Below, piece after piece: positions 16,064-57,030 of a stretch of DNA of 64,000 nt. Positions within the stretch are counted from its first letter, which is position 1. Each line of letters starts with the position of its first letter. The DNA is from Rufibacter ruber. GTDB lineage: Bacteria > Bacteroidota > Bacteroidia > Cytophagales > Hymenobacteraceae. The position numbers and the translations under genes are program-made. The DNA lies in assembly GCF_001647275.1 (NCBI RefSeq), contig NZ_LRMM01000006.1, positions 1 to 64,000 of the forward strand, read 5' to 3'. Below the pieces are notes generated by a model, which saw nothing but the letters and a program-made list of their open reading frames with translations, was not told where the DNA came from and ran no database searches.

Positions 16064-16103
16064 CTGTTTTGGAGCTGTTTTTCTGAAAACAGGCCGAAAA
16101 CAG
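16064..16103. repeat. HP40 hairpin copy 11
   Basis: CTGTTTTGGAGCTGTTTTT faces GAAAACAGGCCGAAAACAG. The middle is mismatched here (GGAGC against GGCCG). It lies upstream of the antiporter gene. Confidence 0.9.
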
Positions 16104-16264: not shown

Positions 16265-17377
16265 CTACGCTTTCTTCTGCACCAGCCGGCGCATGGCCAG
16301 CAGCCCCAGCAGCGGACCGAGGGCCAGGAACAGAAACCAATAGCGGGAATCAATAGAGCTTTGAATGAACCGCAGAAACTGAATGCTGACAATAGTAAGC
16401 GCAAAGCCGAGGGAGTTGACAATGGTGAGCGCAGTTCCTTTGGCCTGCGCCGGGGCATTCTGCGCCACCAGCGTAGAGAACTGCGGCGAATCCATGGGCG
16501 CGGCAAACCCCCACACCAATAGCAGCCCCAGAAACAGCCCCAACGGCAATGCAAATAGCCACGGCGACAGCAGGCAACAGACAAATGAAACGGCCAAGGC
16601 CGAAAAAGCAGTACGGGCGCTCCCCATGCTCCGGGACAGGTACCCTCCTGCCACGCAGGCCACCGCCCCCACGGCAATAATGCTAAAAGACCACAGCGGA
16701 TTGTTCAGCCTAAGCTCCGGATTGGCCTCGGCGTACATAGCCAGCATGACCGGCACAAACGCCCAGAACGTGTACAGTTCCCACATGTGCCCGAAGTACC
16801 CAAAGGCGGCGGCTCTAAAGTCTTTCTGCCGGAAAATCTGGAAAAAGGCGGTAAAATCTGGCTGACTGCTTTTGGCTCTGTAAGGTCCGTCTGGCACCAA
16901 CAAGAACAACGCCACGCCTCCCGCCACCGCCAACCCCGAAGTAGCCCAGATCACGTACCGCCACGGCAGCCCCTCGGTAAGGCTTTTGAGCAAATGCGGA
17001 AACGCCGTGCCCACCACCAGCGCCCCCACCAGAAACCCCAGCGCCTTCCCCAGCCCCTGCCGGTGGTAATCTGCCGCTATCTTCATGCCCACCGGGTAAA
17101 TACCCGCTAAACAAAAGCCCGTCAGAAACCGGGACAGCACCAGCGTAGAAAGCCCATCGGCGGCCAGTATGCTAGCGTTACAGACTGCCCCCGCCACCGC
17201 GCACACCAGAAACACCTTAGACGGCGAGAACCGGTCTGAAATGGTGAACACCGCAAAGACTAGCGTACCCAAGATAAAGCCCAACTGCACCGCTGAGGTG
17301 AGGTGGCTCACGGAGCTGGCTTCTAAGTGAAACTGCGGGATGAGGTTAGGCAGCACCGCATTGCCTGCAAACCACAA
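16265..17377 (-). CDS. MFS transporter, N-terminus possibly displaced by an insertion
   Basis: This is a major facilitator of about 370 residues with twelve helices. It has GFILGTLVFAVFTISDRFSP (loop 2-3), RFLTGFCLAGIYPVGMKI (helix 4), and a second half opening near FTAFFQIFRQKDFR. The only start codon I find is TTG at 17377, inside what should be the first helix. In-frame sequence upstream still reads like the family (LKIIVLAQFACTSLW) but without an ATG, GTG or nearby TTG, and beyond it the DNA becomes AT-rich. The normal 5' end may have been lost when the RelA-domain gene was inserted. Substrate unknown; the protein may not be made at full length. Confidence 0.8.
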   Translation of the reverse strand: MWFAGNAVLPNLIPQFHLEASSVSHLTSAVQLGFILGTLVFAVFTISDRFSPSKVFLVCAVAGAVCNASILAADGLSTLVLSRFLTGFCLAGIYPVGMKIAADYHRQGLGKALGFLVGALVVGTAFPHLLKSLTEGLPWRYVIWATSGLAVAGGVALFLLVPDGPYRAKSSQPDFTAFFQIFRQKDFRAAAFGYFGHMWELYTFWAFVPVMLAMYAEANPELRLNNPLWSFSIIAVGAVACVAGGYLSRSMGSARTAFSALAVSFVCCLLSPWLFALPLGLFLGLLLVWGFAAPMDSPQFSTLVAQNAPAQAKGTALTIVNSLGFALTIVSIQFLRFIQSSIDSRYWFLFLALGPLLGLLAMRRLVQKKA

Positions 17378-17484
17378 AGAGGTGCAGGCAAATTGGGCCA
17401 GGACAATAATTTTTAGATTAAAATTTATGACTGCAATAATTATGATTTTTAAATTATGTTGAATTTGGTTTTCAAAATAATCAA

Positions 17485-18447
17485 TTAAGATTTAAGTAGC
17501 CATAATAGCGTTGCACCTTGTATGAAACCAATAAGGTCATAATTATTTTTAAATCTTTCAATTTGTTCCTCTATAAATTTATCTTTATTATCTATATATA
17601 ATTTTTCAATATCAGAAATAGTATTTAATCCTTTATCATTTAATTTTATTAGAATGTCATCTAAAATGTAATCAAGCTCTTCTATAGGGTCTAATTCTAA
17701 ATCTTTTCGAGCATTTATAATTCGATCTTCTACTTCAGTTACAATTTTACTATTTGTTAAGTAAGATATAACCGATGCTTTATTTATTTCTACTGTGGAT
17801 GGCACACTTTTAATTTTTTCTCCTACAGTAGACTCATATTCTGCAATTTCATTTTTTAATTTTACAAACTCTATATCAGCCTGCTCTAATAAAGCTGCAA
17901 CTCTAAAAAATGTTCGCTTTGCAGAATCCGGAATTTCAAATTCTCCTTTATAGCCGATATCATGTTCTATTTCTGCCCAAGAGTGTTGAAGTATGCTTCT
18001 TATTTGTATTTCAAATTTTATTTTTTTAAAATTTGAATACTCTGATAATTTTAATCGACTATTATTATAAAAGGCTACAAAATGTAAACTTCTATAACCA
18101 AACCTATCTGCATCTAACAATCTTTTATCAACTGAATTCTCAATATCAATATCAAATTCGTCTTTAATGATGCTAGCAACTAAATCAATCTCATCTTCTA
18201 AGTAAGTTATTATTCTAATACCTACTATATCTGTTATTTCTTCAATTGAATCATATTTATAATTTTTGTTTATAATTTTATGTTCTAAACTTTTTCTATC
18301 CTTAACTCTTGATATGATTTGATGAGGATTAATATTTCTTTTATTCAATAAAACCCTTATTAATTGTTCAGTGCTAACTCTAAGGTTATTTAATAAAATA
18401 AATTGTTCATCAAACTGAGACAATAAATTTTTTCCTTTAATTTTCAT
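17485..18447 (-). CDS. RelA/SpoT-domain nucleotidyltransferase, AT-rich, probably acquired
   Basis: The 320-residue product carries one RelA_SpoT synthetase domain (about residues 35-190) and no HD hydrolase, TGS or ACT domain. Motifs: SRVKDRKSLEHKI (nucleotide-binding region), DIVGIRIITYLEDEID (catalytic Asp), DRFGYRSLHFV, and FEIQIRSILQHSWAEIEHDI with the catalytic Glu. All look intact. The ~130-residue C-terminus is helical and unrecognised. Such stand-alone synthetases include housekeeping alarmone synthetases and toxic forms (toxSAS, CapRel). Base composition is strikingly AT-rich next to GC-balanced neighbours, and the AT-rich block starts right at the thyA stop. The ATG at 18447 is chosen because a longer frame would overlap thyA. 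No antitoxin gene is seen beside it. Confidence 0.87.
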   Translation of the reverse strand: MKIKGKNLLSQFDEQFILLNNLRVSTEQLIRVLLNKRNINPHQIISRVKDRKSLEHKIINKNYKYDSIEEITDIVGIRIITYLEDEIDLVASIIKDEFDIDIENSVDKRLLDADRFGYRSLHFVAFYNNSRLKLSEYSNFKKIKFEIQIRSILQHSWAEIEHDIGYKGEFEIPDSAKRTFFRVAALLEQADIEFVKLKNEIAEYESTVGEKIKSVPSTVEINKASVISYLTNSKIVTEVEDRIINARKDLELDPIEELDYILDDILIKLNDKGLNTISDIEKLYIDNKDKFIEEQIERFKNNYDLIGFIQGATLLWLLKS

Positions 18448-18511
18448 TAGTAGATTTTTTATACATGAATTATCTATAGGATTTTTAAATAAATCCTTAA
18501 TAACATTTTTT

Positions 18512-19306
18512 TTACACCGCCACCGGCGCCTTAATTCCCGGCCACGAGGTATACTCCTCCAGCGTAAAATCCTCAAACTCAAACCCAAAAATATCCTTCA
18601 CCTCCGGGTTCAGTTTCATCTTGGGCAGCGGGCGCGGTTCACGGCTCAGTTGCAGCTGGGTTTGCTCCAGGTGGTTCGTGTAGAGGTGGGTATCACCGCC
18701 GGTCCAGATGAACTCGCCATATTCTAACCCGCAGACTTGGGCCACCATCATAGTGAGCAGCGCGTAAGAGGCAATGTTGAACGGCACGCCTAAGAAAACA
18801 TCTGCGCTTCGTTGGTAGAGCTGGCAGGAGAGTTTGCCCTCGGCTACGTAGAACTGGAAGAACGCATGGCACGGCGGAAGCTTCATGTTGTTCACCTCGG
18901 CCACGTTCCAGGCGCTCACAATCAACCGGCGCGAATCTGGGTTGTTCTTGATTTGGTTGATCACCTGCTGAATCTGGTCAATGTGTCCGCCGTCGGGCGT
19001 GGGCCAGGAGCGCCACTGCGAGCCGTACACCGGCCCCAGGTTTCCGTCGGCATCGGCCCATTCGTCCCAAATGGTCACGCCCCGCTCCTGCAGCCACCTC
19101 ACATTGGTTTCGCCGCGCAAAAACCACAGCAGCTCATAGATGATAGACTTGAGGTGTACCTTCTTGGTGGTCACCAGCGGGAAGCCTTCCTGCAAATTAA
19201 ACCGCATCTGGTAGCCAAACACACTGATGGTACCGGTGCCGGTACGGTCTTCTTTCTTCACGCCGTTGTCCAGAATATGGCGCATCAAGTCTAGGTAAGC
19301 CTGCAT
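18512..19306 (-). CDS. thyA: Thymidylate synthase
   Basis: ThyA converts dUMP to dTMP using methylene-tetrahydrofolate. Its 264 residues match the length of E. coli ThyA. Motifs are complete: [15 protein letters not shown] start, [32 protein letters not shown], the [11 protein letters not shown] segment, [12 protein letters not shown] with the catalytic cysteine, and [14 protein letters not shown] 19306 is the start; sequence further upstream is intergenic and includes an AATT-rich stutter tract. The stop codon abuts AT-rich DNA leading into the RelA-domain gene, so any native downstream terminator has been lost or replaced. Confidence 0.98.
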
Positions 19307-19345
19307 TGTAATAATTAGGAATTGGGAATTTAGAATTAGGAATGA
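19307..19345. repeat. AATTAGGAATT-type stutter tract
   Basis: Imperfect repeats of TTAGGAATTGGGAATTTAG type sit directly upstream of the thyA start. Similar tracts occur at 1269-1297, 19848-19873, 27573-27607, 28328-28348 and 29147-29187. Confidence 0.6.
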
Positions 19346-19471
19346 GCGCGGGCCCATTGGAAGCATGAAGATAGGGAAAACCCGTTGCAGGTTGGTTCTT
19401 CTTTTGGCGGAAATTATCAACAGCCCCCCTACAAGCCCCGCACGCCGCTGTTGTCTGGAGAAAATCATTTC

Positions 19472-20295: not shown

Positions 20296-20518
20296 TGCGC
20301 TACCCTCCATTCTTCGTTTCTGAGAATCCCATACAGGCAGGAGCCTTTCCCCTCTGCCAACGGCTCCACACCTGGCTCCTGATAGCCTGAACAGGACAAT
20401 GGTGTACGCCCGGCTCCCGAAGAAGTTGGTCCGTATTTCTCCTGTTTTTAAGTTGAACACGCAGGTCCTTGCTGAAAGAACCATTTTCCCAGAAGGCGCC
20501 GTCAGTACATCAGAAATG

Positions 20519-20557
20519 TGTTTTCGGGCTGTTTTTCTGAAAACAGACCGAAAACAG
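20519..20557. repeat. HP40 hairpin copy 13
   Basis: TGTTTTCGGGCTGTTTTTC faces GAAAACAGACCGAAAACA. The CGG/CCG part pairs. It lies between the divergent GNAT and DUF885 genes. Confidence 0.92.
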
Positions 20558-24384: not shown

Positions 24385-24746
24385 ACCAGCGTCTGACCGC
24401 GGTTGCCCAATACCTCTCCTATTCAGAAGCCATAGGGCTTTACCAGGCACTGAAGGAGGCAGGTGTGGTGGCGTTGGTCAAGTCCAGCGGTCCCCCCAGC
24501 CTTCCGTTTGGCGAGGGTTTATATTTCCAGTTGCTGATTGCCGCTGAGAACCTGCCGGCGGCCCAGACCGTTTTAGACCTGTTTTCTGAAAAACAAGCCG
24601 GAAACAGCCACCGGGCGCAGACGTGCCCGCGGTGCGGGTCTGTACAGGTGCTTCCTTCCCGGAATTTATCCTGGTGGAAAAAGGTTCTGTATGCTGGCAC
24701 CACCGTGTACGGCTGTGCCGGTTGTAACCATTCATTTTTTGCATAG
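24381..24746 (+). CDS. DUF2007-like zinc-ribbon protein with an HP40 repeat in its coding region
   Basis: The 121-residue protein has an N-terminal alpha/beta domain resembling DUF2007 (YSEAIGLYQALKEAGVVALV ... YFQLLIAAENLPAAQTVL, residues about 13-63). A C-terminal zinc ribbon has Cys pairs TCPRCGS and GCAGC. The two parts are joined by LDLFSEKQAGNS, encoded by an HP40 unit at 24568-24607, in frame and without a stop. The gene overlaps the upstream coiled-coil gene by 4 nt. Function is unknown; the DUF2007 assignment is moderate. Confidence 0.78.
   Translation: MNQRLTAVAQYLSYSEAIGLYQALKEAGVVALVKSSGPPSLPFGEGLYFQLLIAAENLPAAQTVLDLFSEKQAGNSHRAQTCPRCGSVQVLPSRNLSWWKKVLYAGTTVYGCAGCNHSFFA
24568..24607. 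repeat. HP40 hairpin copy 16, inside a coding region
   Basis: CCGTTTTAGACCTGTTTTC faces GAAAAACAAGCCGGAAACAG. It sits in frame in the linker of the zinc-ribbon gene, encoding VLDLFSEKQAGNS. Confidence 0.85.
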
Positions 24747-24835
24747 CAAGATTGTATCACGTAGCACGTATCACGCATCAAGACTTACTTTTATAATTAA
24801 AAATCTTGCTACGAGATACGCGTTACGCGATACTA
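24745..24835. repeat. TATCACGTAGCACG-type stutter tract
   Basis: Words such as TATCACGTAGCACGTATCACG and, near the end, TACGAGATACGCGTTACGCG recur in loosely inverted order just before the helicase start codon. Confidence 0.55.
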
Positions 24836-24843
24836 TATTTAGA

Positions 24844-26807
24844 ATGAACAAAATCTTAGATGAATTACTAGACGTTCGGGCGCTGCTCAAGCTGGAGCAG
24901 GAAGAAGAACGCAAACAATACCAACTCCGCAACGCACAGACCAGCATCACCGAGCGCAAACGCCTGGGCATCTGCTGGTATCCGGTGAATGTGACTAAGC
25001 AGGAAGTGGGTTTCGGGAATAAGATGGTGGTGGAGCTGGAGCGAACCTCTGGCCGTGACCAGCTGCACATGTTCCAGGCCGGCTCCTCGGCGGCGCTCTT
25101 CACCAACGGCGACGGCGGCACGCTCAACGGCGTGGTGCTGGAGGTGAAACGCAACAAGCTGCGCCTGGCCACCACCAAAGAAGACCTGCCTGATTGGCTG
25201 GAAGGCGGTTCCCGCCTGGGCGTGGAGCTTACCTTTGATGAGGTGAGCTACCGCGAAATGGAGTTTGCCCTCATGAAAGTGATGGAGGCCGATAAAACCC
25301 GCCTTGGCCAGTTGCGGGACATTCTGCTGGGCGCTGAACCCGCTATTTTCAGAAGGGAGAAGCCGTATGCCCCGGTTCCGGTGCTGAACAACTCGCAGAA
25401 CGAGGCGGTGCGCAACATCATGCAGGCCAAAGACGTGGCCATCATTCACGGTCCTCCGGGAACCGGGAAAACCACTACGCTGGTGCAGGCTATTCTACAG
25501 ACGTTGCAGCCGGTGAGAAACGGTTACTGGTTACCGCCCCCAGCAACACGGCCGTGGATCTGCTCACTGAGAAACTGGCCGAGCAGGGTGTGAATGTCAT
25601 CAGAATCGGGAATCCGTCAAGGGTGTCTGAGGTTTTGCTGGAGCACACCCTTGACGCCCAGATTATGCACCACCGCGACTACAAGATGCTCAAGAAATTG
25701 CGCAAAACCGCTGAGGAATACAAGTCTATGGCGCACCAGTTCAAGCGGAACTTTGGGCCGCAGGAACGGGCACAACGGCAGCAGCTCAAAGAGGAAAGCA
25801 AGCGGGCGCTGAACCAGGCAGATGACATTGAAGATTATATCACAGATGACCTGCTGGAGAACGTGCAGGTGATTACCTGTACGTTGGTGGGTTCGGCCAA
25901 CCGCACCATTAGGCACCTGCAGTATGACACGGTGTTTATTGATGAGGCCGCCCAGGCGCTGGAACCCGCCTGCTGGATTCCCATCACCCGGGCAAACCGC
26001 GTGGTGCTGGCCGGTGACCACTACCAGTTACCACCAACGGTGAAGTCAATTGTAGCCGAGCGCGGAGGCTTTTCCCGTACCCTGTTTGAAAAATGTATTG
26101 AGCGGCAACCAGAGACGGCTGTGATGCTGAAGACCCAGTACCGCATGCATGAGCACATCATGGGCTTCTCCAACGGGCAGTTTTATGGGGGGGGACTACA
26201 GGCCCATGAGAGCGTGAAAACTGCTACACTCACAGACGCCTTTCCTGCGTTTGAGCCGGGGCCGGTGGTGGAGTTTATTGACACCGCCGGGTGCGGGTTC
26301 AATGAACAGACCATTGGCGAGGGCAGCAGTACCGCCAACCCTGAGGAAGCCGATATTCTGATCAAGCACCTGGTAACGCTACTCACGCCGTATGAGCCTG
26401 CCCCCAAAGACCAGCCTTTGAACGGAAAGCCACTCAGAATTGGCGTCATCTCCCCCTACCGGGCCCAGATCAACTACCTCACAGACCAGGTAGAGCACCA
26501 GCCCAAGTTGTCACAGCTCATGGCGCGGCGGCAGCTGAGCGTAGGTACCGTAGATTCCTTTCAGGGGCAGGAGCGGGATATCATTTACATCAGCATGGTA
26601 CGCAGCAACCCAGAGGGTGAAATAGGCTTTCTGGCAGACATGCGCCGTATGAACGTGGCCATGACCAGGGCCAAGAAAAAGATGGTGATAGTAGGTGACA
26701 GCGCCACCCTGGGGCAGCATGCGTTTTACCAGAAGTTCTTAGCATACGCTGAACAGATTGAGGCCTACCGAAGCGCCTGGGAGCTGATTTCTGAAGCCCC
26801 TCAATAA
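24844..26807 (+). CDS. SF1 helicase (IGHMBP2/DNA2-like), frameshifted near 25510
   Basis: This is a superfamily 1 AAA-helicase of about 654 residues if one missing base is restored. It has an N-terminal beta-barrel-like region (residues about 30-190), Walker A HGPPGTGKTTTLVQAI, Walker B DTVFIDEAAQALEPA, motif III LAGDHYQLPPTV, motif IV/V with SVGTVDSFQGQERDIIY, and motif VI MRRMNVAMTRAKKKMVIVG. The frame breaks at 25509-25512. Upstream the frame ends ILQTLQ; downstream it should resume GEKRLLVTAPSNTAVDLL, which needs one extra base in CAGCCGGTGAG. As written, motif I is separated from the rest. The substrate could be DNA or RNA. Confidence 0.9.
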
Positions 26808-35260: not shown

Positions 35261-35614
35261 CTAAACCCCCAACTCCACCCGCACTTTCTTCGGGAGGCAC
35301 TTCACCACCAGTTCATAGGAATGGTTAATGAGCTCTGGCAGCAATCCCATGGGCAGAAAAGCTTCAGGCAGAATAGTGTTCCAGTATTTCTTGTTCATGT
35401 GGTAGCCCGGTTGGATGGCCGGGTACTGCTCCCGAAGCTCCACCGCCCTTTCCGGGTCACATTTCAGGTTCACGCCCTCGGCGTAGCTGTTCAGGCTGCA
35501 CATGGCAAACATCTTTCCGGCCACTATAAAAACCAGGGTGTCTTCGCCGAAAGGCAGGGTTTCCTCTACGTGAGGCTTGGCCAGGCAGTAGTCTCTGAAT
35601 TCCTCTATGTTCAT
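35261..35614 (-). CDS. MmcQ/YjbR family protein
   Basis: This is a 117-residue CyaY-like fold protein of the YjbR group. It starts MNIEEFRDYCLAKPHVEETLPFG and has the characteristic EETLPFGEDTLVF, KMFAMCSL, NLKCDPERAVELREQYP and PGYHMNKKYWNTI segments. Some members bind DNA, but the cellular role is not established. ATG 35614 is the family start. It is monocistronic and downstream of the DUF2167 gene, separated by that gene's terminator. Confidence 0.9.
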   Translation of the reverse strand: MNIEEFRDYCLAKPHVEETLPFGEDTLVFIVAGKMFAMCSLNSYAEGVNLKCDPERAVELREQYPAIQPGYHMNKKYWNTILPEAFLPMGLLPELINHSYELVVKCLPKKVRVELGV

Positions 35615-37114: not shown

Positions 37115-37717
37115 TTATCTGTTCGCTTCTTCAATAAGTACCTTTGCTTGTGTAGGATACTTACTTATAAGCCAATGTAATACATCAAGCTGGTCTTTTC
37201 CTGGAGCTCTTCTAATCTGCGCAATTAATTTTATTGCTTGCGGCCTGATTAGAGTTAAGTTTGAAGCACCTTCATTACAAAGTGAGCAGATAGCTCTTAA
37301 ATTGTTAGGTTCATCAGTTCCTCCCATTGATTTATCAATGATATGACCAATATGTAACCTGGTTTTCCGTCCATTGTCATTTGGATGTGGTTCCCCAGCA
37401 GCAGCCCCGCACATTTGACAAGTAAAACCATTCCTATCTAAGACAAAAGCCCGAGTCTCTTTTGATATTCCTCTTTCAAAAGCAGGTAAAGGCTTTAAGC
37501 TTATCAAAACATACTGACCAGGTTTTAAATCACTCCTGTCATTATGGGTAACTATATTTAGGCCTTCCTCATTCCGCAGTTCCCTTACTCTTCTTGCCCA
37601 CTCACTTATGCCTGCTACCTGTCTTAACGTATCAGAATCTATTACTTCACCAACACGGTTAAAGAAGAATTCTCGCAGAAGAGCTCTTGCGCCTTTACTT
37701 TCAGATTTCTTTTTCAC
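37115..37717 (-). CDS. HNH endonuclease, probable restriction partner
   Basis: The 200-residue protein has a C-terminal-half HNH domain: FTCQMCGAAAG and ICSLCNE form the zinc cysteine pairs, and TRLHIGHIIDKSMGGTDEPN holds the catalytic His with the usual N. The N-terminal ~90 residues (REFFFNRVGEVIDSDTLRQV... ) look like a winged-helix DNA-binding region. It starts with GTG at 37717 and overlaps the cytosine methyltransferase gene by 17 nt, so the two are translationally coupled as in type II restriction-modification systems. AT-rich composition suggests acquisition. The recognition sequence is unknown. Confidence 0.85.
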   Translation of the reverse strand: MKKKSESKGARALLREFFFNRVGEVIDSDTLRQVAGISEWARRVRELRNEEGLNIVTHNDRSDLKPGQYVLISLKPLPAFERGISKETRAFVLDRNGFTCQMCGAAAGEPHPNDNGRKTRLHIGHIIDKSMGGTDEPNNLRAICSLCNEGASNLTLIRPQAIKLIAQIRRAPGKDQLDVLHWLISKYPTQAKVLIEEANR

Positions 37718-38654
37718 CTTTTTCTAATGCTTCTTTTATTGAATTTCCGATAGCTCTGGCAACTGGTGGCGGAAATGCGTTTCCTACTTGTCTATAGGCT
37801 GGAGTTTTTTTTCCGATAAATTCCCAATCCTTAGGAAAACCTTGTACTAAAGCGGTCATTTTTAACGTAAGCCTTGGCAAACCGTCAAATCCATTGATGG
37901 GGGGAGATTCAGCTAGGCCGCGCCCATCAATCCCCATTTCTGCCCAAGCTTTTTTGGCTCTAGTTGGTCCTAAGTCAGCCCCACCATGTTTTTTAGAACC
38001 ACCAACTAAGGTTGGAGCAATTACATTAGCTTTTTCTTTCCATTGATCAGCATTGCTCCAGCCTAATAGTGACATTTCTTCATAAAGCAATTCACCAACT
38101 GTCAAAGGTTTGTTTTCAGTTTTATTTGGCCATGTAAAATATGGAAAATATTTTTCTTTCATAGCCACCAAAATTGCCCTTGGCCTTAACTGTGATACTC
38201 CATAATCTGAAGAATTTACAAGTTTCCAATCAAAACTATAACCATGAGCCCGTAATGTACTCAAAATTTCTTTTCTATAAGTTTTGAACTTAGGACTAAG
38301 AATTCCTTTAACATTTTCTAACATGATGGCCTTTGGCTTACATTCCTCCATCAAGCGCAAGGCTTCTGGGAACAAATCCCTCTCATCAAGGTGCCCTAAT
38401 TGTTTTCCAGCAATTGAAAACGGTGGACATGGGACCCCCCCGGCAAGAAGATCTACTTTTCCATTGTAAAGGGACGCATCAAACTCTTTTACATCTAAAT
38501 TGATTACATTCCAATTAGGCCTGTTGTGGCGTAAAGTTTCACAGGCAAGTCTCTCAATTTCAACTAAAGCAAGATGATCAAATCCAGCTTGTTCTAAACC
38601 CAATGCTTGCCCACCAGCCCCAGCACAAATCTCTAATGATGTAAATTCTGACAT
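37701..38654 (-). CDS. DNA (cytosine-5-)-methyltransferase
   Basis: This is a 317-residue C5-cytosine methyltransferase. Motif I is SLEICAGAGGQALGLEQAGF (AdoMet site), motif IV is AGGVPCPPFSIAG with the catalytic Cys, motif VI is AIMLENVKG, motif VIII is SQLRPRAILVAMK, and motifs IX-X are at the C-terminus (YRQVGNAFPPPVARAIG). The variable target-recognition region lies about 190-280 (NVIAPTLVGGSKKHGGADLG). It is followed by the overlapping HNH nuclease gene, so it probably protects host DNA from it. It starts 16 nt downstream of the ispG stop and is much more AT-rich than ispG. Confidence 0.95.
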   Translation of the reverse strand: MSEFTSLEICAGAGGQALGLEQAGFDHLALVEIERLACETLRHNRPNWNVINLDVKEFDASLYNGKVDLLAGGVPCPPFSIAGKQLGHLDERDLFPEALRLMEECKPKAIMLENVKGILSPKFKTYRKEILSTLRAHGYSFDWKLVNSSDYGVSQLRPRAILVAMKEKYFPYFTWPNKTENKPLTVGELLYEEMSLLGWSNADQWKEKANVIAPTLVGGSKKHGGADLGPTRAKKAWAEMGIDGRGLAESPPINGFDGLPRLTLKMTALVQGFPKDWEFIGKKTPAYRQVGNAFPPPVARAIGNSIKEALEKGEKEI

Positions 38655-56990: not shown

Positions 56991-57030
56991 CTGTTTTGGG
57001 GCTGTTTTCAAGAAAACAGCCCCAAAACAG
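56991..57030. repeat. HP40 hairpin copy 33 (perfect palindrome)
   Basis: CTGTTTTGGGGCTGTTTTC pairs fully (19 bp) with GAAAACAGCCCCAAAACAG, loop AA. The flanking TTT/AAA extends the stem. It lies between convergent genes. Confidence 0.98.

Follow-up and report, generated by a model that had tools for sequence, protein, structure and literature searches.

A lone RelA/SpoT-domain gene with a helical C-terminal domain in a gene-swapping slot between thyA and an MFS transporter gene of Rufibacter ruber

Several described systems bear on the gene reported here. CapRel of phage SJ46, a fused phage-sensing toxSAS, is a lone phage-borne gene with an extra C-terminal domain, and its described features are a beta pseudo-zinc-finger and a YXXY motif (available portion of PMC9712102). 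Two-gene toxSAS modules have an adjacent antitoxin gene, and RelP and RelQ are stably inherited, single-domain synthetases with solved chains of 209 to 255 amino acids. In FaRel2, the ATP- and acceptor-site residues are R64, K66, S70, K74, D90, R95, E145, and Y128 of the G-loop (PMC11782079, in the text accessible). For the locus, the parallels come from type VI effector loci, where effectors are swapped by homology-facilitated illegitimate recombination (PMC11751169; effector swapping in type VI secretion loci also in PMC5361080, both sources in part), and from the broader set of hotspots whose content is renewed through recombination at core genes (PMC5635113, in part).

We analyzed a window of 64,000 nucleotides from the R. 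ruber genome (NZ_LRMM01000006.1, positions 1 to 64,000), in which an AT-rich insert follows thyA on the minus strand (thyA stop at 18512-18514, insert from 18511 to 17410, then the MFS gene). The features are as follows.

18512..19390, minus strand: thyA (thymidylate synthase), the anchor upstream of the slot; present in every genome of the genus compared (16 of 16), with its last 30 nt near-identical and no shared sequence beyond.
17410..18511, minus strand: AT-rich foreign insert filling the thyA-MFS slot, delimited by composition and by homology with relatives, which ends at the thyA stop and at about MFS codon 6.
17485..18447 (stop included), minus strand: lone RelA/SpoT-domain gene, 320 amino acids, from the reading of open reading frames (ORFs) and PF04607.
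17836..18447, minus strand: synthetase part, residues 1-204, from PF04607, the model (pLDDT 94.9), a VIA Z of 18.6 to RelQ over residues 9-204, and conservation.
18082..18102, minus strand: G-loop FGYRSLH, residues 116-122, in which Y118 is the tyrosine that binds the acceptor, from conservation (role of the tyrosine from the available portion of PMC9712102).
17488..17835, minus strand: all-helical C-terminal domain, residues 205-320, a candidate sensor or cis-inhibitor; it folds alone in prediction and has no known fold or family.
16265..17407, minus strand: MFS transporter gene, which flanks the slot downstream as its second anchor; carried by all 16 genomes of the genus compared, with its first codons and usual start replaced in R. 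ruber.

The RelA/SpoT-domain gene has a complete frame (ATG at 18447, stop ending at 17485), and the insert holds no further ORF of at least 60 aa. Its GC content is 0.25 vs 0.54 in the 5-kb flanks, and its third-position GC is 0.14 vs 0.73 in thyA and 0.72 in the MFS gene. The original prediction, made from this DNA alone, thus held in placing the gene in DNA richer in A+T than both neighbors, starting at the base right after the thyA stop. The genome has no second copy of the gene. Our search for a repeat bounding the insert returned short AT-rich repeats only, none of them sitting at both borders. A promoter scan of the insert gave 8 sites vs 7.4 expected and no terminator-like site was found in it, so that transcription of the slot cargo by read-through from thyA is possible. 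The MFS frame is open up into the insert and has no ATG, GTG, or TTG before 17377, because the conserved first stretch of the MFS gene has been lost in this genome; its translation may begin at TTG 17377, or the gene may be impaired.

We compared the locus in 16 genomes of the genus, one per species and including that of R. ruber. Both thyA and the MFS gene are present in 16/16, and the slot between them is always occupied (16/16). The gap measures 1,038 to 4,632 bp, with a GC content of 0.24 to 0.45, in all 14 genomes that have both genes on one contig; in the other two (G027 and G063) the genes lie on different contigs, which break beside both of them. On the left, homology ends at the thyA stop codon in 16/16 genomes, and on the right a recognizable first stretch of the MFS gene is kept in 15/16, R. 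ruber being the exception. What lies between is not shared: the first cargo proteins of the 16 genomes have no mutual blastp match at E 0.01 (for G063, we used the MFS-side protein closest to the contig break), and blastn between the gaps found one long common piece (G006 and G042, 591 bp, 81%, behind their first genes), the remaining matches being repeats of 53 to 68 bp that involve G027, G060, and G032. The first ORF is codirectional with thyA in 14 of 15 genomes, 18 to 162 nt from the stop (G063 was omitted for its contig break). A single ORF is listed in 5 of the 14 contiguous gaps, and the others hold two or more.

As a control, we read 60 kb around the locus in six relatives and considered pairs of adjacent conserved genes that could be tested in three or more of them. 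Only 1 of 27 pairs, thyA-MFS, has a gap of at least 1.1 kb in R. ruber and in all relatives tested. The other 26 pairs are all on the thyA side, the genes beyond MFS being mostly not syntenic, and a synteny break may extend to the far side of the MFS gene. Outside the genus, 134 genomes from five other genera gave an MFS match at E 1e-80 in 87 (none in genus g2) and a thyA match in 133. None of the 87 has thyA within 200 kb of the MFS match on one contig, as judged from lists read by eye, a comparison that pairs split over contigs would escape. The neighbors differ among 20 regions downstream of thyA from the five other genera; in one of them (G118) the position is taken by an AT-rich gene, and the gene after thyA in three genomes of genus g4 (G003, G009, and G014) reads as a transporter without a match to this MFS protein. 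No true empty thyA-MFS site was found in the genus or in the extra-genus genomes searched. The original prediction had named conservation of the gene at this locus across the family, with native composition, as evidence against its reading; the gene is not conserved at the locus, where the other 15 genomes of the genus all carry different cargo. The slot thus has conserved flanks with fast-changing content, as hotspots do, and the RelA/SpoT-domain gene, accessory and foreign in composition, occupies a slot between thyA and the MFS gene in which genes are swapped throughout the genus.

Compared with the PADLOC models, the first cargo genes gave matches at E<1e-8 in 8 of the 16 genomes. ATPase-like proteins match many models, and single names in the list below are to be read with care.

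Genome G057: Uzume UzuA, 4e-64.
Genome G063: GmrSD-type/HEC-06/Orf5, best 1e-123.
Genome G048: PDC-S59, 4e-30.
Genome G042: PDC-S60, 4e-29.
Genome G022: AAA ATPase like NsnB, AriA, and GajA, 4e-23.
Genome G051: SIR2 protein, 3e-17.
R. ruber, RelA/SpoT-domain protein: PDC-S33, 3.8e-17.
Genome G012: partial DrmA match, 3e-9.
Genome G054: cyclase, PycC, 5e-6 (weaker, outside E<1e-8).
Genome G017: chance-level match only, 0.006.

The first cargo of G006, G027 (thyA side), G032, G037, G045, and G060 has no PADLOC match up to E 0.01, and the slot of G006 holds a Schlafen AlbA_2 protein. The excess over the window, 8/16 in the slot vs 2/14 non-slot genes at the same cut-off (one-sided Fisher P 0.045), is a modest enrichment in defense models, since the control genes also match. 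Two genes of the window (24691-26807, plus strand) that are also kept in five of the six relatives match PADLOC MkoA (down to 3e-76), which shows that PADLOC flags ordinary genes too. Half of the first cargo genes are without a defense-model match at E<1e-8, which counts against a defense reading of the slot.

No integrase or transposase family scored above the cut-off in the 20 cargo proteins scanned; the G048 cargo gave one sub-threshold TniB match. A GIY-YIG nuclease domain and a weak match to homing endonucleases (1.2e-5) in the UzuA-like protein of G057 make nuclease-driven homing possible for that occupant. In the G063 slot, a pair that reads as HigB/HigA-like follows the GmrSD gene (L080, 3722-4405), and the second protein of the pair matches PD-Lambda-2_B (1.6e-46).

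Within the RelA/SpoT-domain protein, PF04607 (RelA_SpoT) matches residues 46-168 (E 2.4e-21) and is the sole Pfam match up to E 1 in the 320 residues, so no hydrolase or regulatory domain was found in the protein, in line with the original prediction. The catalytic set comprises R47, K49, S53, K57, D73, R78, Y118, H122, E146, Q148, and R150; the expectation of intact motifs was borne out by 73 aligned sequences, in which ten of these residues are invariant and S53 is at least 90% conserved. F116, G117, Y118, S120, and H122 of the G-loop are likewise invariant in the 73. Assigned by eye, the catalytic residues correspond to the ATP- and acceptor-site residues given for FaRel2 in the accessible text of PMC11782079.

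The full model, built from the 73 aligned sequences, has a mean pLDDT of 94.9 and a pTM of 0.87. Its closest solved structures are RelQ and RelP (VIA Z 17 to 18.6 over residues 6-207; Foldseek best E 2.4e-10), followed by long Rel enzymes, CapRel (VIA Z 12.9, residues 2-193), Tas1 (11.2), and FaRel2 (7.9). The sequence profile likewise places RelQ (about 1e-29) ahead of CapRel (6e-6), and the score against the NCBI RelQ/YjbM model is 74.8 of 320 bits, below its cut-off. The best rows from a viral structure library are RelA/SpoT-type proteins (best E 3.3e-8), and among the rows shown none extends over the full model (TM normalized by query length, 0.47 or less). The modeled likeness to RelP and RelQ favors a nucleotide as acceptor.

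Past residue 174, the confidently predicted structure is helical; the only strands are two of 3 residues each. A fold search with the whole model barely probes the C terminus, and we therefore predicted and searched the C-terminal domain separately. Predicted alone, it reaches a pLDDT of 90.4 and a pTM of 0.81, and its PDB fold search returned nothing below E 1 with Foldseek (best E 2.9) and a best VIA-align Z of 3.6 (ClpX). Residues 205-320 have no Pfam match above the cut-off, and a sequence-profile search of the PDB found no match for them (best E 0.15); with Pfam on the 73 aligned tails, no family matched more than 2. The C terminus, first described as unrecognized and about 130 residues long, is indeed unrecognized in Pfam and the PDB, and its length is about 116 residues. 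Conservation falls mainly on hydrophobic positions and on a tail motif like G-x-S-x-F-Y-L. Many relatives are 350 to 380 aa long, and we considered whether the C terminus is truncated here; the nearest relatives (Psychrobacter and Chryseobacterium, 320 to 333 aa) end equally short, and the idea was rejected.

The gene is no housekeeping synthetase. A PF04607 gene with an open frame of 738 to 772 codons, taken by its size as the long Rel, occurs once in each of the 16 genomes, and 14 of the 15 other genomes have this one alone, which speaks against the orthology to a housekeeping small alarmone synthetase that had been raised as a counterindication; the remaining genome (G054) has a second PF04607 gene, distant from ours (28% identity). 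In a draw of 150 genomes from the taxonomic family, 24 have any match at E 1e-3, R. ruber included. Besides R. ruber, five reach E 1e-13 (G133, G125, G011, G056, and G142), and none of these relatives lies beside thyA. Interrupted relatives, in G056 (L006/L026) and at L208, show that loss of function occurs in the protein family.

The wider family is mobile. A scan of viral contigs with the single protein found no relative, and an alignment query then found 65 related loci; from a genome scan we took the best 80 of at least 539 relatives. By record title, and among the matches listed, the family extends over Bacteroidota, Bacillota, Pseudomonadota, Actinomycetota, Cyanobacteria, and others. 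The 145 loci gave 143 frames ending inside the locus, of which 136 reached 280 aa; these were reduced to 101 representatives at 65% identity. We surveyed the two closest ORFs of 60 aa or more on either side of these 101, a survey that would miss shorter partners; no conserved partner was found and no neighbor cluster exceeded 9 ORFs. The largest cluster, read by eye as phage integrase, has 6 of its 9 members 1 to 5 nt from the gene, and other clusters read by eye as phage tail genes. Lone relatives sit on a Bacteroides finegoldii phage-plasmid (in the opposite direction to the capsid genes), on a 3.5-kb Klebsiella plasmid, and on a Vibrio filamentous phage. The gene is lower in GC than its surroundings in 50/51 viral and 44/49 genomic representatives with a flank of at least 3 kb. 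PHROG 9640, a phage family whose function is not described, matches residues 4-291 (1e-75) and so largely includes the C-terminal domain; it names relatives only. The synthetase had been called a lone one, and it is indeed the single gene of its insert, without a conserved partner in the representatives. It belongs to a broad mobile family of lone genes that join a RelP/RelQ-like synthetase domain, with intact catalytic residues, to a conserved helical C-terminal domain.

Because no partner gene is conserved beside the relatives, it is plausible that the C terminus neutralizes its own enzyme; the missing partner and the conserved domain, rather than a contact in the model, are the grounds on which we infer inhibition in cis. 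The protein is probably a switchable growth-arrest protein. It would transfer pyrophosphate from ATP to a 3'-hydroxyl, with (pp)pGpp favored as product over tRNA or (pp)pApp, judging by similarity alone. The C-terminal domain would keep the synthetase off in cis until a phage signal led it to release or activate the enzyme, whereupon the infected cell would stop growing. The best reading is thus of a mobile, self-contained, probably phage-triggered predicted pyrophosphokinase in a gene-swapping slot. Taken jointly, a foreign accessory gene in a swapping slot, a mobile family, exchange by recombination, and a synthetase held in cis and released by phage form the explanation toward which we lean, if only slightly. 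The suggestion of phage defense gained support from the phage and plasmid relatives, PHROG 9640, the other slot occupants, and the distant PDC-S33 match.

The protein shares with CapRel a single-gene build, an N-terminal synthetase domain with intact ATP and G-loop residues, an extra C-terminal domain, phage-borne members, and the lack of a partner. It differs in three respects: the predicted C terminus is all-helical where that of CapRel is a beta-rich pseudo-zinc-finger, the YXXY of CapRel is missing after residue 205, and the synthetase domain is closer to RelP and RelQ than to CapRel, Tas1, or FaRel2. The CapRel-like label of the original prediction, which had proposed a comparison of the predicted C terminus with CapRel, is therefore not supported as it stood. 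Two-gene toxSAS modules differ by their antitoxin gene, which, among ORFs of at least 60 aa, has no counterpart in the insert or beside the 101 representatives. With RelP and RelQ the protein has the synthetase fold and the catalytic residues in common, and it differs by its added conserved domain and by a sporadic, mobile distribution, being present in 1 of the 16 genomes of the genus (the G054 relative is distant). PDC-S33, a PADLOC candidate for single-gene phage defense, matches residues 14-158, and the C terminus lies outside the match; the restriction of the match to this part of a candidate model weighs against the defense reading. Since two features of CapRel fail and neither the single-domain build nor the stable inheritance of RelP and RelQ is seen, we file the protein as a small synthetase that is encoded alone and has a helical domain of its own; it may, by analogy, work like CapRel. 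A full-text literature search, with most subscription journals outside it, gave no description of this architecture or of the thyA-MFS slot among the matches listed, and PDC-S33 is named in no paper searched.

The likeness to RelP and RelQ could also be the sign of an ordinary alarmone synthetase without a defense role. Such an accessory, stress-tuned (pp)pGpp synthetase, whose C-terminal domain would respond to a host signal or determine the oligomeric state, agrees with the nearest solved structures being those of (p)ppGpp makers and with the profile ranking; the scattered occurrence of the gene, its AT-rich composition, its location on phages and plasmids, and the defense-like genes found in the same slot speak against it, and we judge it unlikely, if worth keeping in mind. 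Equally to be weighed is a true toxSAS, a fused or self-inhibited enzyme that pyrophosphorylates tRNA ends or makes (pp)pApp. The conserved tail motif is found in 38 of the 73 aligned sequences and reads Y..Y in 15 of those 38 (YXXY occurs somewhere in the tail of 33/73), which, together with the intact catalytic set and the resemblance to the lone SJ46 gene and its extra domain (available portion of PMC9712102), gives this account some footing. The model has no beta pseudo-zinc-finger, this protein has no Y..Y in its tail, and its likeness to CapRel, FaRel2, and Tas1 is weaker than that to RelP and RelQ; the toxSAS account is accordingly doubtful. It is improbable that the gene is a passenger without present function, taken up with DNA and now decaying, at a place that does no more than tolerate insertions: codirectional neighbors and a dispensable MFS start would tolerate inserts, and the usual MFS start is lost here, but the frame is full length, the catalytic residues are intact, and the short-tail ending is common to the Psychrobacter and Chryseobacterium relatives.

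The preferred reading, a foreign gene exchanged by recombination, draws on partial flank copies found inside four gaps. These hold five remnants, four of the MFS gene (in G006, G042, and G012) and one of thyA (in G017). G006 has two pieces of the MFS start (80% over 106 bp and 90% over 190 bp) and G042 has one (73% over 147 bp), whereas the piece in G012 comes from slightly further inside the gene (80% over 80 bp) and starts late, at probe position 161. The alignments of the MFS remnants end at different points, roughly 136 to 177, 177, 202 to 213, and 240 of the probe, varying with the probe. The remnant in G017 is 61 bp of the thyA 3' end, 95% identical to another species vs 87% over 69 bp to its own thyA. 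Another species' gene is also the better match, over differing lengths, for the G042 piece (73 vs 70%) and the diverged G006 piece (80 vs 73%). For the second G006 piece, foreign and own matches are tied (90.0 vs 89.7%), and for G012 the donor comparison reported no own match, so that the donor signal of the remnants is weak. The gaps of G006 (L071) and G042 (L073) also share a gene that reads as DinB-like, directly behind an MFS 5' remnant in both, which indicates that this block of remnant plus gene has spread or is old.

From the remnants, we infer that incoming DNA may pair with one flank and join illegitimately at the other end. Slot occupants would then be exchanged without an integrase of their own, incoming DNA recombining through homology to thyA, the MFS gene, or both, and some events, homologous on one side only, would leave cut-off flank copies behind. 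Effector swapping at type VI loci is alike in having one homologous and one illegitimate end and in replacing a gene at a fixed locus (PMC11751169, in part); those loci have secretion genes where the anchors here are thyA and the MFS gene and the cargo is partly defense-like. Recombination hotspots, as far as the accessible text of PMC5635113 describes them, share the core-gene flanks and the high turnover, and no integrase was seen among the 20 cargo proteins scanned here; the thyA-MFS slot differs from them in being small, in being occupied in 16/16 genomes, and in its remnants, which mark successive events. Site-specific integration into the thyA 3' end by a lost or external integrase would explain the left border exactly at the thyA stop in 16/16 genomes and the 61-bp thyA-end copy in G017, but it is very improbable, as four of the five remnants come from the MFS flank with scattered ends and no fixed core, the 20 cargo proteins scanned include no integrase or transposase above the cut-off, and a border at the stop codon is also expected from selection on thyA alone.

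A larger claim is that one-sided recombination swaps defense genes in an integrase-free, thyA-anchored slot throughout the genus, perhaps with read-through from thyA, and that the R. ruber occupant is the first of a new class of lone synthetases that phages trigger, distributed across many phyla and prophages and controlled by a helical sensor-inhibitor domain not described before; we advance it tentatively, as a claim that falls somewhat short of even. If it is true, reading the thyA-MFS slot across the genus is a cheap route to new phage-defense genes, the slot already holding known and candidate ones beside several unrecognized genes. The protein family would be a second solution, unlike the zinc-finger-like domain of CapRel, for silencing a lone alarmone-type enzyme until infection, and the remnants would be a direct record of gene swapping in bacteria without mobile-element machinery.

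Two further features of the window were observed. A second spot of low GC (0.39 to 0.40) at 37115-38654 on the minus strand encodes a cytosine methyltransferase (PADLOC DruM/MTase_II, 2e-147) and a putative type II restriction enzyme (1e-6); it lies between conserved genes at 35261 and 38671 and has no match in the 60 kb examined around the locus in each of the six relatives. A dispersed palindromic repeat with a half-site like GAAAACAGCCCCAAAACAG (for example, at 16064-16103, 20518-20557, and 56991-57030) has no half-site inside the insert. Over the 64 kb, 18 half-sites on the plus strand and 20 on the minus strand were counted with at most 4 mismatches (mean of 0.0 in 20 shuffles), and the repeat looks like a REP-type intergenic element.
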